From Halorarum halophilum (GTDB lineage: Archaea > Halobacteriota > Halobacteria > Halobacteriales > Haloferacaceae), in NCBI RefSeq assembly GCF_013401515.1, contig NZ_CP058529.1, positions 2,852,001 through 2,916,000 of the forward strand: DNA of 64,000 nucleotides. Direction: 5' to 3'. The translations under genes were made by a program, and so were the position numbers. Below the pieces are notes generated by a model that was not told the DNA's origin, ran no database searches, and saw only the letters and a list, made by a program, of their open reading frames with translations. Below are positions 58,110 to 61,493 of the stretch, in pieces; position 1 is the stretch's first letter; the number at the start of each line of letters is the position of its first letter.

Positions 58110-59300
58110 ATGAGCATCCTCGTCACGGGCGCCGACGGCTACCTCGGCTGGCCCACCTCGATCCGCATCGCCTCCCGGACCAACGAACGCGTCGTCCTCG
58201 TGGACAACTTCGGCCGGCGTGACTGGGTCGAGGAGGTCGGCGCCGTCTCCGCGACGCCGGTCGCGGACATCGACACCCGCCTCGACGCGGCCGAGGAGGC
58301 GCTCGGCCTCACGAACCTCTCATTCGTCGAGGGCGACCTGACCGATCGAGCGTTCGTCAACGAACTCCTCCAGGTCCACGAGCCCCACACGATCGTCCAC
58401 GCGGCGGCCCAGCCCTCCGCGCCGTACTCGCAGATCAACGGCGAGCGGGCGAACTACACCCAGGAGAACAACATGGCGGCGACTCGGAACCTCGTCTGGG
58501 GCCTGCACGAGCACGACCTCTCAGATACCCACTTCATCGAGACCACCACGACGGGCGTGTACGGCGCGCCGGAGTTCCCCATCCCCGAGGGCGGCGCGAC
58601 GATGGAGAACGGCGGCGAGCGCGACGAGGTGCCGTTCCCCGCGATGGCCGGGTCCTGGTACCACCTCTCCAAGAGCCACGACGCGGCGAACCTGCGGCTG
58701 GCGAACAAACAGTTCGGCATCCCCGTCTCCGACGTGCGGACGGCCATCGTCTACGGCGCCGAGACCGACGAGACGGCGAGGGACGACCGGCTCGCGACCC
58801 GCTTCGACTTCGACTACTACTTCGGCGTCGTCGCGCACCGGTTCGCGGCCCAGGCCGTCGCCGGCTACCCCATCACGGTGTACGGCAGGGGCGAACAGCG
58901 GAAGCCGTTCGTCGCGCTCGAGGACGCCGTCGAGGGGCTCGCACAGCTCGCGCTCGGCGACCCGGACGACAGGCCCGACGACGTCACCGTCTACAACCAG
59001 GTGACCCGCGCCATCTCCATCGTCGAGATAGGCACGACGATCGCGGACGTCGCCGGGGAGTTCGACCTCGGTACCGAGGTCGAGCACTTCGAGAACCCCC
59101 GCGAGGAGGACGAGACCCACCAGATGGAGATCGAGAACGACCGGTACGCCGACCTCATCGGCGGCCAGTCGGTCTCCTTCGAGGACGGCATCCGCAACGT
59201 CCTCGAGACGCTCGTCGAGAACGCGGACACCATCCGGGCGCACGAGGACCGGTTCCTGCCGGGCGTCCTCGAGGACCGGCTCGCCGACGAGGCGAACTGA
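58110..59300 (+). CDS. UDP-sulfoquinovose synthase-like NAD-dependent epimerase (SQD1/Agl3 type)
   Basis: 396 residues, ATG 58110 (MSILVTGADGYLGWPTSIRI). The GYLGWPT variant of the Rossmann loop is characteristic of SQD1. Further matches are HAAAQPSAPYSQINGERANYTQ (compare the SAPYSM segment of SQD1), TTTTGVYGAPEFPIPEG, SWYHLSKSHDAANLRLAN with the catalytic Tyr and Lys, and VYGAETDETA. SQD1 and Sulfolobus Agl3 add sulfite to UDP-glucose to form UDP-sulfoquinovose. In haloarchaea the sugar could enter N-glycans or sulfolipid. It stands alone with its own promoter, next to WecB and the tRNA-like elements. Confidence 0.85.
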   Translation: MSILVTGADGYLGWPTSIRIASRTNERVVLVDNFGRRDWVEEVGAVSATPVADIDTRLDAAEEALGLTNLSFVEGDLTDRAFVNELLQVHEPHTIVHAAAQPSAPYSQINGERANYTQENNMAATRNLVWGLHEHDLSDTHFIETTTTGVYGAPEFPIPEGGATMENGGERDEVPFPAMAGSWYHLSKSHDAANLRLANKQFGIPVSDVRTAIVYGAETDETARDDRLATRFDFDYYFGVVAHRFAAQAVAGYPITVYGRGEQRKPFVALEDAVEGLAQLALGDPDDRPDDVTVYNQVTRAISIVEIGTTIADVAGEFDLGTEVEHFENPREEDETHQMEIENDRYADLIGGQSVSFEDGIRNVLETLVENADTIRAHEDRFLPGVLEDRLADEAN

Positions 59301-59488
59301 GCCGCGTCGCCCGTCCGTTCTCGAACGCGAGCACACTATCCGTCGACGCCGCGAGCTTTTTCCCCGCCGCAGCCCCGGTTTAGCGAGCGATTACCAGAAA
59401 TCGAGCGTGCGGGCTAACCGCACGGTAGCGGGCGGATTACAAGACCGGTAGCGCGTCTTCGAACGGATGCGAGAGGAAGACGCAGCGC

Positions 59489-59576
59489 GAAAGGGTCGCT
59501 CAGCTTGGAAGAGCATCCACCCCGCCGGTGGGTGGCCTGAAACACGGCCCCGGAGGTTCGAGTCCTCCCCCTTTCG
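59489..59576 (+). tRNA. tRNA-like sequence with long variable arm and C33; possible pseudo-tRNA
   Basis: It folds as acceptor GAAAGGG/CCCTTTC, D-arm GCTC/GAGC with GG in the loop, and anticodon stem TCCAC/GTGGG. The variable region has a GGCC/GGCC stem (class II shape). The T-arm is GGAGG-TTCGAGT-CCTCC, a perfect T stem and canonical T loop. The anticodon loop is CCCGCCG, so position 33 is C instead of the invariant U, and the nominal anticodon CGC does not fit a class II isoacceptor. Either a tRNA-derived relic or a non-decoding tRNA-like RNA. Confidence 0.5.
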
Positions 59577-59581
59577 TCAGC

Positions 59582-59653
59582 GCGTGGGTGGTGTAATGGC
59601 AACACGCGGCCGCTCCACGGCCGAGCTGGATCGTTCAACTCGTCCCCCACGCA
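59582..59653 (+). tRNA. tRNA-Gly(TCC)-like sequence with C33 and mispaired T stem; probable pseudo-tRNA
   Basis: Acceptor GCGTGGG/CCCACGC plus A, D-arm GTGT/ACAC, and anticodon stem CGGCC/GGCCG match the layout of haloarchaeal tRNA-Gly (GGTGGTGTAATGG is the typical D region). The loop GCTCCAC gives anticodon TCC but with C at position 33. The T stem GATCG/CGTCC has two mismatches around a TTCAACT loop. It starts 5 nt after the first tRNA-like element, so both would be on one transcript. Confidence 0.5.
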
Positions 59654-59819
59654 CTCCTCGGGAACGTCAGCCGACGCCGAAGAGTTCTCTGGAAGATCAT
59701 CTCGTCGCGGCTGATTAGGTGCTGAAGGCTACCTCCGTTCGGTCTCGTCCACACACCGGGAACCGGCGGGCGGGTGCCAACCCCGACCGTTTTGTGTAAC
59801 CGGGTCGTTCGGTGCCGCC

Positions 59820-60800: not shown

Positions 60801-61493
60801 TCACAGGAGGTGCGGTCCCACCTGTTCGACTAGGAGCAGCCCACCGATAATGACGCTGACCAGCCCTGCCGCCCCCTCGAGATACCGCGTCGCCCCGAGC
60901 CCGAGCGCCCGACCCCAGACGGACGAGACGGCCGCCATCGTGACGACCGAGAGGGCGCTGAAGCCCGCGAGGAACCACAGCGCCGCCCCGACCGACGGCG
61001 TCGAGGCGACGAGCGCGATCACGAGCGCGCCGCTGCCCGCGAAGCCGTGGACGACGCCGACGAGGAACGATTCGGAGTCGACGTGGCCGTGACCCGATCC
61101 GACCGAGAGGCTCCCGAACCTGAAGTGCGAGTGCGTGTCCCGGTCGTGTCCGTCCCCCTCGACGCCGTCGGTACCGTGTTCGTGCGTCTCGACGCCGACT
61201 CCCCCGCTGATCAGGCGCCACAACATTCGGGCGCCGAGGAGGACGAGGATCACGCCAACGATGGCTTCGAAGACGCCGGTGACGCGCTCGGGCAATCTAA
61301 TCCCGAGCGCGACGAACAGGAGGCCGAGCACGACGATGGGCACCGAGTGCCCGACGCCCCACGACGCGCCGACCAGTCCGGTTCGGGTATCGTCTTCCTC
61401 GACCAGTGTCGCGATAGCTGCCACGTGGTCCGTTTCGAGCGCGTGGCGGGCGCCGAGAACCGCCCCTGCCGCGAGGGCGCCTGTGAGTGACAT
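60801..61493 (-). CDS. NicO/RcnA-like nickel-cobalt (or related) membrane transporter
   Basis: 230 residues, ATG 61493 (MSLTGALAAGAVLGARHALE). Six membrane segments are predicted. The first carries ARHALETDHVAAI, the H-x4-DH metal-binding signature of NiCoT/NicO transporters. A His/Asp/Gly-rich cytosolic loop (ETHEHGTDGVEGDGHDRDTHSHF, then GSGHGHVDSE) follows TM3, and VVHGFAGSGALVIAL resembles the second half of UreH/NicO proteins. It may export or take up Ni or Co. It is encoded on the opposite strand between two sugar epimerases and appears unrelated to them. Confidence 0.82.
   Translation of the reverse strand: MSLTGALAAGAVLGARHALETDHVAAIATLVEEDDTRTGLVGASWGVGHSVPIVVLGLLFVALGIRLPERVTGVFEAIVGVILVLLGARMLWRLISGGVGVETHEHGTDGVEGDGHDRDTHSHFRFGSLSVGSGHGHVDSESFLVGVVHGFAGSGALVIALVASTPSVGAALWFLAGFSALSVVTMAAVSSVWGRALGLGATRYLEGAAGLVSVIIGGLLLVEQVGPHLL

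Follow-up and report, generated by a model that had tools for sequence, protein, structure and literature searches.

The window, a 64,000-nucleotide stretch of a haloarchaeal genome of 4.28 Mb in 4 contigs (G000, C1:2852001-2916000), carries two tRNA-like elements in tandem, here termed TLE1 and TLE2, which follow a gene for a UDP-sulfoquinovose-synthase-like NAD epimerase and are preceded by a short box and a leader hairpin (Table 1). ARAGORN calls the site as 'Ala CGC' (59488-59578) and 'Gly TCC' (59582-59654), and its output together with the sequence bears out what the first-pass annotation had described: two cloverleafs separated by 5 nt that both have C33 in the canonical register, the first of which has a class II arm at odds with an alanine anticodon. 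Within the window Rfam gives no match at the gathering threshold, and at E ≤ 10 only sub-threshold matches, tRNA-Sec among them, appear around the site; a scan of the whole genome with the Rfam tRNA model lists neither TLE1 nor TLE2, even at E ≤ 10. According to ARAGORN the chromosome also encodes ordinary Gly-UCC, Gly-CCC, and Gly-GCC tRNAs as well as four Ser, five Leu, and three Ala tRNAs, one of the latter with CGC: With ordinary Gly-UCC, Ser, and Ala-CGC genes at hand, neither TLE1 nor TLE2 is therefore needed for decoding.

Table 1. Positions of the tandem elements, their parts, and associated features; coordinates refer to the window unless a locus label is given.
Feature	Position	Strand	Basis
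UDP-sulfoquinovose-synthase-like NAD epimerase gene	58110..59300	+	337 bits against an NCBIfam cut-off of 575; context
ATTACAA box (probable promoter element), 53 nt ahead of TLE1	59436..59442	+	motif recurrence
Leader hairpin between box and TLE1 (59453-59460/59476-59483)	59453..59483	+	read from sequence
TLE1, class II tRNA-like RNA without anticodon loop	59489..59576	+	ARAGORN, fold, 14 homologues with covariation, distribution
TLE1 acceptor; G73 at 59576	59489-59495/59569-59575	+	
TLE1 hairpin replacing the anticodon arm, 6 bp (59516-59521/59527-59532), loop 59522-59526	59516..59532	+	fold, covariation
TLE1 variable arm GGCC/GGCC with 2-nt linker, Ser-type geometry	59534..59551	+	read from sequence; comparison with the genome's own four Ser and five Leu tRNAs
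TLE2, Gly(UCC)-like tRNA-like RNA, A73, loop G32-C33-UCC-A-C38 (59612-59618), one bulged U in T stem	59582..59653	+	ARAGORN, comparison
Type C elements, 99-105 nt, long hairpin, no clear variable arm	L312:6053-6151; L313:5704-5802; L314:6004-6108; L316:5997-6095		

A tRNA-like family without an anticodon loop

TLE1 folds into a five-arm cloverleaf with an acceptor stem of 7 bp, a D stem of 4 bp, a T stem of 5 bp, and a variable stem of 4 bp, and as a single sequence it folds moderately better than its shuffles (z −2.2). In the predicted fold a stem of 6 bp closed by a loop of 5 nt forms the "anticodon arm", and the innermost pair of this stem is the canonical 32:38. In an ordinary anticodon loop these two positions are unpaired; because they pair in TLE1, the element has no 7-nt anticodon loop, and its C33 is a symptom of this absence. 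The same architecture recurs in an alignment of 14 TLE1-type sequences, designated TLE-A (the window copy, G001, G044, G296, G138, G336, G281, G225, G184, G316, and four copies from G059): Five pairs change on both sides, which 0 of 500 shuffles reach, and the 32:38 pair is formed in 14/14, as CG in 12 and, by a compensatory swap, as GC in 2. None of the 14 has a U at position 33, which is occupied by A, C, or G, so that the 7-nt loop with U33 of a decoding tRNA is found neither in TLE1 nor in TLE-A. An ordinary tRNA that contains an intron or was read in the wrong register was rejected for the same elements, since their length leaves no room for an intron and 32:38 is always paired; neither possibility, both of which the first-pass annotation had named as refuting, rescues a normal isotype.

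A covariance model of TLE1 yields strong TLE1-type matches (at least 87 bits) in 10 of 391 Halobacteria genomes. Family f1 is taken as Haloferacaceae on the grounds that G296 and G059 coincide in sequence or coordinates with Haloferax profundi and Halogranum amylolyticum; there, 12 of 170 genomes have matches at E ≤ 1e-10, which comprise nine of TLE1 type, two ordinary tRNA-Ser (G232, G050), and one variant (G248). TLE-A is accordingly patchy in its family (9/170 genomes). A separate short-pattern scan of contigs returned at least 117 stretches, mostly by chance, of which an acceptor regex kept 3: L101 from Haloferax profundi as well as L151 and L156 from Halogranum amylolyticum.

Lower-scoring matches of the TLE1 model led to a second type, TLE-B, with the acceptor GGAAGGG/CCCTTCC. 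When 14 TLE-B sequences (13 distinct) are aligned with MAFFT without fitting to a model, seven pairs change on both sides, again reached by 0/500 shuffles, and four of them sit in the hairpin that stands in for the anticodon arm. Fitted to the model, a set of 51 sequences (49 distinct; TLE-B plus two longer type C elements) has nine such pairs, including all six of the replaced-arm helix; an alignment of this kind by its nature leans to the model. According to predicted folds, the stem and loop of this arm vary widely in length in TLE-B. Read by eye, the T stem of TLE-B has a single additional base that bulges out (GCG-U-GG/CC-CGC or GUGG-C-G/C-CCAC), a bulge that TLE-A lacks. Type C denotes longer elements (94-105 nt) that have the acceptor and T arm in common with the others; position 73 is G or A, with A73 in 5 of the 9 counted as type C, and the copies in Haloferax and in family f6 adjoin a succinate dehydrogenase flavoprotein gene. 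Hoelzle et al. reportedly predicted further tRNA-like elements in Haloferax volcanii in 2012, and these may overlap with type C.

With a joint family model, matches occur class-wide in 116/391 genomes and 34/86 genera at E ≤ 3e-10, and in family f7 in 107/125 genomes and 28/29 genera at E ≤ 1e-9, both being model counts of which a part was inspected by eye; one copy per genome is the rule in f7. Outside Halobacteria, the matches that were fetched were rejected as relatives, as 7/7 are ordinary tRNA-Ser. ARAGORN labels members of the family Ala, Arg, Gln, Gly, His, Pro, or Val, or makes no call. The existence of TLE1 and TLE-B as a conserved RNA family is well supported: Homologues occur beyond the genus and family of the window species, and their covariation exceeds that of all 500 shuffles, which is more than chance. 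The first-pass annotation had named absence from all relatives as refuting; relatives do carry the element, and the view that these are not ordinary tRNAs and may be tRNA-like RNAs with another role gains support.

Some tRNA-like genes elsewhere in the window genome were recorded in passing. A further anticodon-less element lies at C1:2444212-2444309 (L342) and is called Val-AAC by ARAGORN; its acceptor is GGTAGGG/CCCTACC, its T stem is bulged, and its variable arm is long. A 106-nt tRNA-like gene without an ARAGORN call (L329, G000:C1:2351562-2351667) looks like an intron-containing tRNA. On a 149-kb contig that appears virus- or plasmid-like, 31 ARAGORN tRNA genes, a nearly full set, are packed into about 13 kb (L213, G000:C4:46225-59030); a comparison of this array with a phage collection gave no match.

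Identity features of TLE1 and TLE2

In all 49 distinct rows of the model-fitted TLE-B/C alignment, G73, U8, A14, and G15 are invariant and the T loop is of the TTCRANT type, and in 42 of them UC forms the 2-nt linker behind the variable stem. By our by-eye reading of the window genome's own tRNAs, a 2-nt linker with G73 is the arrangement of tRNA-Ser (4/4), whereas tRNA-Leu has a 3-nt linker with A73 (5/5). G73 together with a long variable arm, the combination that marks tRNA-Ser under the aminoacylation identity rules set out in a passage of PMC9976931, is present in 14/14 TLE-A. The core, the Ser-type linker, and G73 are thus kept while the anticodon loop is gone, which indicates that the needs of seryl-tRNA synthetase (SerRS) have been retained and those of the ribosome lost. 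Ordinary tRNA-Ser, which beyond Halobacteria is the canonical tRNA closest to the family model, shares the long variable arm, the 2-nt linker, G73, and the 7/5 acceptor branch; it differs from the family, which has no anticodon loop, a T-stem bulge in TLE-B, and a different upstream box. TLE1 also resembles tRNA-Sec, an RNA charged by SerRS, in its class II arm and G73. An identity as tRNA-Sec was rejected: The acceptor branch of TLE1 has 12 bp (7+5), and its score with Rfam RF01852 is 17.9 bits versus a cut-off of 47; tRNA-Sec needs a branch of 13 bp, 9/4 in archaea, as stated in part of PMC7609411.

The partner TLE2 is of a different kind. The mispaired T stem ascribed to it in the first-pass annotation is indeed irregular, but a reading by eye shows a single bulged U (GGA-U-CG/CG-UCC) rather than mispairing. 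G32 and C38 can close a 5-nt loop, and the fold of TLE2 alone does not differ significantly from shuffles (z −1.5). The TLE1-TLE2 tandem is present in the window genome and its sister species G001 as well as in G184 and G316 of another family (f4), is carried by 2/7 genomes of its second genus, and was not found in G002. The window copy of TLE2 shares 82-83% identity with the f4 copies but only 60% with the genome's own tRNA-Gly-UCC, and is therefore no recent copy of the latter. UCC, A37, G32, and C38 are constant in 4/4 copies, and N33 is C, U, G, and G. U33 is missing from both elements of the window as had been claimed, whereas a shared loss to C33 does not hold, given the variation at this position among TLE1 homologues and TLE2 copies alike. 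In Aeropyrum pernix, the archaeal glycine identity set comprises C35, C36, C2-G71, and G3-C70, again according to a passage of PMC9976931; all four features occur in TLE2 of the window genome and G001, and in G184 and G316 A3-U70 replaces G3-C70. The latter two copies have no T-stem bulge and one C.C mismatch in the acceptor stem.

Between the window species and G001, TLE1 is 82% and TLE2 92% identical, while the 150 nt downstream of the pair reach 51%, against an average of 50% for unrelated pieces in the same aligner. These values speak against the first-pass suggestion of relics: Both elements are strongly conserved between the sisters next to a flank at chance level, and the family is near-universal in f7. 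That the pair are decaying tRNA relics, or ordinary tRNAs in disguise of an intron or a wrong register, is very improbable. The odd anticodon loops, the bulge in the TLE2 T stem, and canonical copies elsewhere in the genome would fit decay; sequence constraint relative to the flank, compensatory changes, and the near-universal presence in f7 contradict it. For TLE1 the conservation already does so; the sample for TLE2 consists of only four genomes.

Upstream box and gene neighbourhood

The box upstream of TLE1 recurs in many members of the family in the form ATWACNA. Within 20-75 nt upstream it is found in 5/12 TLE-A and in 8/15 TLE-B outside f7, with two more just beyond −75, and in f7 it precedes 23/23 TLE-B copies at −34 to −36, each against a shuffle mean of about 0.3; it is upstream of 0/15 type C elements and of 1/24 canonical tRNA genes of the window genome. 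An extended box, GATTACNAATACGA, occurs 13 times in 12 f7 genomes, 11 times just upstream of TLE-B; the two other sites are G065:C11:3534 and G130:C2:1241152. In TLE-A the box lies farther upstream, and short leader hairpins, read by eye, abut the element in several species including that of the window. The fixed distance of the box in all f7 copies points to independent transcription.

This bears on the idea that the elements serve as processing signals, cut by RNase P and tRNase Z so as to free a neighbouring RNA. Such a case exists upstream of the Haloferax volcanii 5S rRNA, where a tRNA-like element is recognised by tRNase Z, as reported in a section of PMC3296008, and many copies of the present family do lie shortly downstream of a same-strand gene. 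We consider this reading improbable, as the box suggests transcription in its own right, the window holds no Rfam RNA, and the flank downstream of the pair is not conserved. Since Rfam finds nothing at gathering threshold anywhere in the window, no 5S rRNA is located there, directly downstream or elsewhere. The H. volcanii elements and the TLE family have in common that they are tRNA-like structures in a haloarchaeon; unlike the 5S element, the family is untied to 5S rRNA, is conserved, and has a common upstream box.

For the gene neighbourhoods, ORFs were assigned with a simple compositional score and no gene finder. The pair follows the UDP-sulfoquinovose-synthase-like gene in both the window and G001, and the Haloferax genome G138 has a similar gene 2.6 kb from its copy. 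TLE-B in families f17 and f6 is near genes for GlmS, an epimerase, a polysaccharide deacetylase, a flippase, or a glycosyltransferase, with a FemAB/GNAT-type gene at a distance of 4.4 kb in the f6 genome G080. In f7, which supplies the largest set, TLE-B by contrast adjoins a helicase, a TRM5/TYW2 gene, and NMD3, with the same neighbours in 5/5 loci compared and no glycan locus, and other copies have unrelated neighbours. The placement in a glycan locus that the first-pass annotation had noted is thus correct as far as the window goes and is seen again in two further lineages, while most copies are elsewhere; with neighbourhoods so mixed, a glycan link is not general, and for some lineages it is suggestive. 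Across the loci compared, the elements have no transferase as a regular neighbour. The Fem/GNAT transferase (PF13480) was dismissed as a marker: FemAB/GNAT-type proteins do not discriminate, because they occur in 14/14 genomes tested, with or without TLE-A, including the TLE-A-free G002 and G029. Within the epimerase cluster of the window, the minus strand has a 230-aa ORF at 60801-61493 without a Pfam match.

Changing neighbourhoods and the patchy distribution of TLE-A would also fit a mobile or attachment element, in which the tRNA-like part is the target or cargo of an integrating element, as would the four dispersed copies of about 280 bp in G059. This explanation is quite improbable: f7 genomes usually have one copy, with the same neighbours at every locus compared, and the window proteins scanned near the site include no integrase. 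The G059 copies (L177-L180), each made up of a TLE-A and its surroundings, are near-identical, and one has a repeated flank; they may be mobile or tandem-array remnants. A BLASTN search with one TLE-A and its flanks against plasmid and phage collections gave no match, and among 20 viral stretches with an exact 15-mer the regex found a matching 3' acceptor in 0/20.

A possible role outside translation

Our preferred reading, to which we assign a probability of about 40%, is that TLE1 and TLE2 are functional non-decoding tRNA-like RNAs of a haloarchaeal family, which would be charged by SerRS and glycyl-tRNA synthetase (GlyRS), respectively, and act outside translation. From the sequence features described above, SerRS would charge the TLE1-type RNAs with serine, and GlyRS would load TLE2 with glycine by reading C35, C36, and the acceptor pairs. 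The missing anticodon loop would keep the charged RNA out of translation. Elongation factors bind tRNA at the T stem; a bulge in exactly this region, as in TLE-B and in TLE2 of the window genome and G001, could pose a further barrier. The charged RNA might then serve as an aminoacyl donor or as a charging-dependent signal for another pathway, and surface glycan modification is one guess for this pathway in the window species.

A related precedent comes from Staphylococcus aureus, in which a non-proteinogenic tRNA-Gly serves the synthesis of peptidoglycan bridges and retains an ordinary anticodon loop. To our knowledge, archaea have no such peptidoglycan; the parallel to TLE2 lies in a Gly-type RNA that is kept out of translation. 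Bacillus cereus tRNA-Other offers a second comparison: According to PMC3399842, this RNA is a poor substrate for aminoacylation, does not occur on polysomes, and influences the cell wall, and as proposed for the present elements it is a tRNA-like RNA outside translation with a link to the cell surface. It differs in having a Trp anticodon and an occurrence in some Bacilli, where the haloarchaeal family has a replaced anticodon arm and spans many genera.

The same precedent lends weight to a competing interpretation that we regard as nearly as likely as a charged acceptor RNA, namely a tRNA mimic that is uncharged or only incidentally charged and acts as a small regulatory RNA by binding a protein, be it an aminoacyl-tRNA synthetase, a tRNA-modifying or CCA enzyme, or a regulator. 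The core and acceptor are kept and the anticodon hairpin is left free to vary, in keeping with a mimic, and type C, with several members lacking a clear variable arm and with mixed G73 and A73, is consistent with it. For mere binding, however, the strict G73 and the Ser-type linker of TLE-A and TLE-B would be unneeded, and UCC is kept in TLE2 although N33 drifts.

In its broadest and more doubtful form, this proposal implies that haloarchaea keep promoter-controlled seryl- and glycyl-RNA carriers in which the anticodon arm has been swapped for a free hairpin, with the amino acid committed to a non-ribosomal pathway that in some lineages may be surface glycan assembly. A literature search over the titles and abstracts of mainly open-access papers returned no description of a haloarchaeal anticodon-less tRNA-like family; non-decoding tRNA-like RNAs are so far known as scattered cases, and genes such as these are misnamed or missed by tRNA finders. 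A lineage-wide family that combines a replaced anticodon arm with a conserved acceptor and SerRS-type identity would demonstrate the separation of a tRNA from decoding and its maintenance in more than 100 genomes. If the proposal is true, the dedicated carriers would be an archaeal counterpart of bacterial tRNA-dependent cell-wall systems, and the family would offer a simple handle on tRNA-dependent chemistry in archaea.
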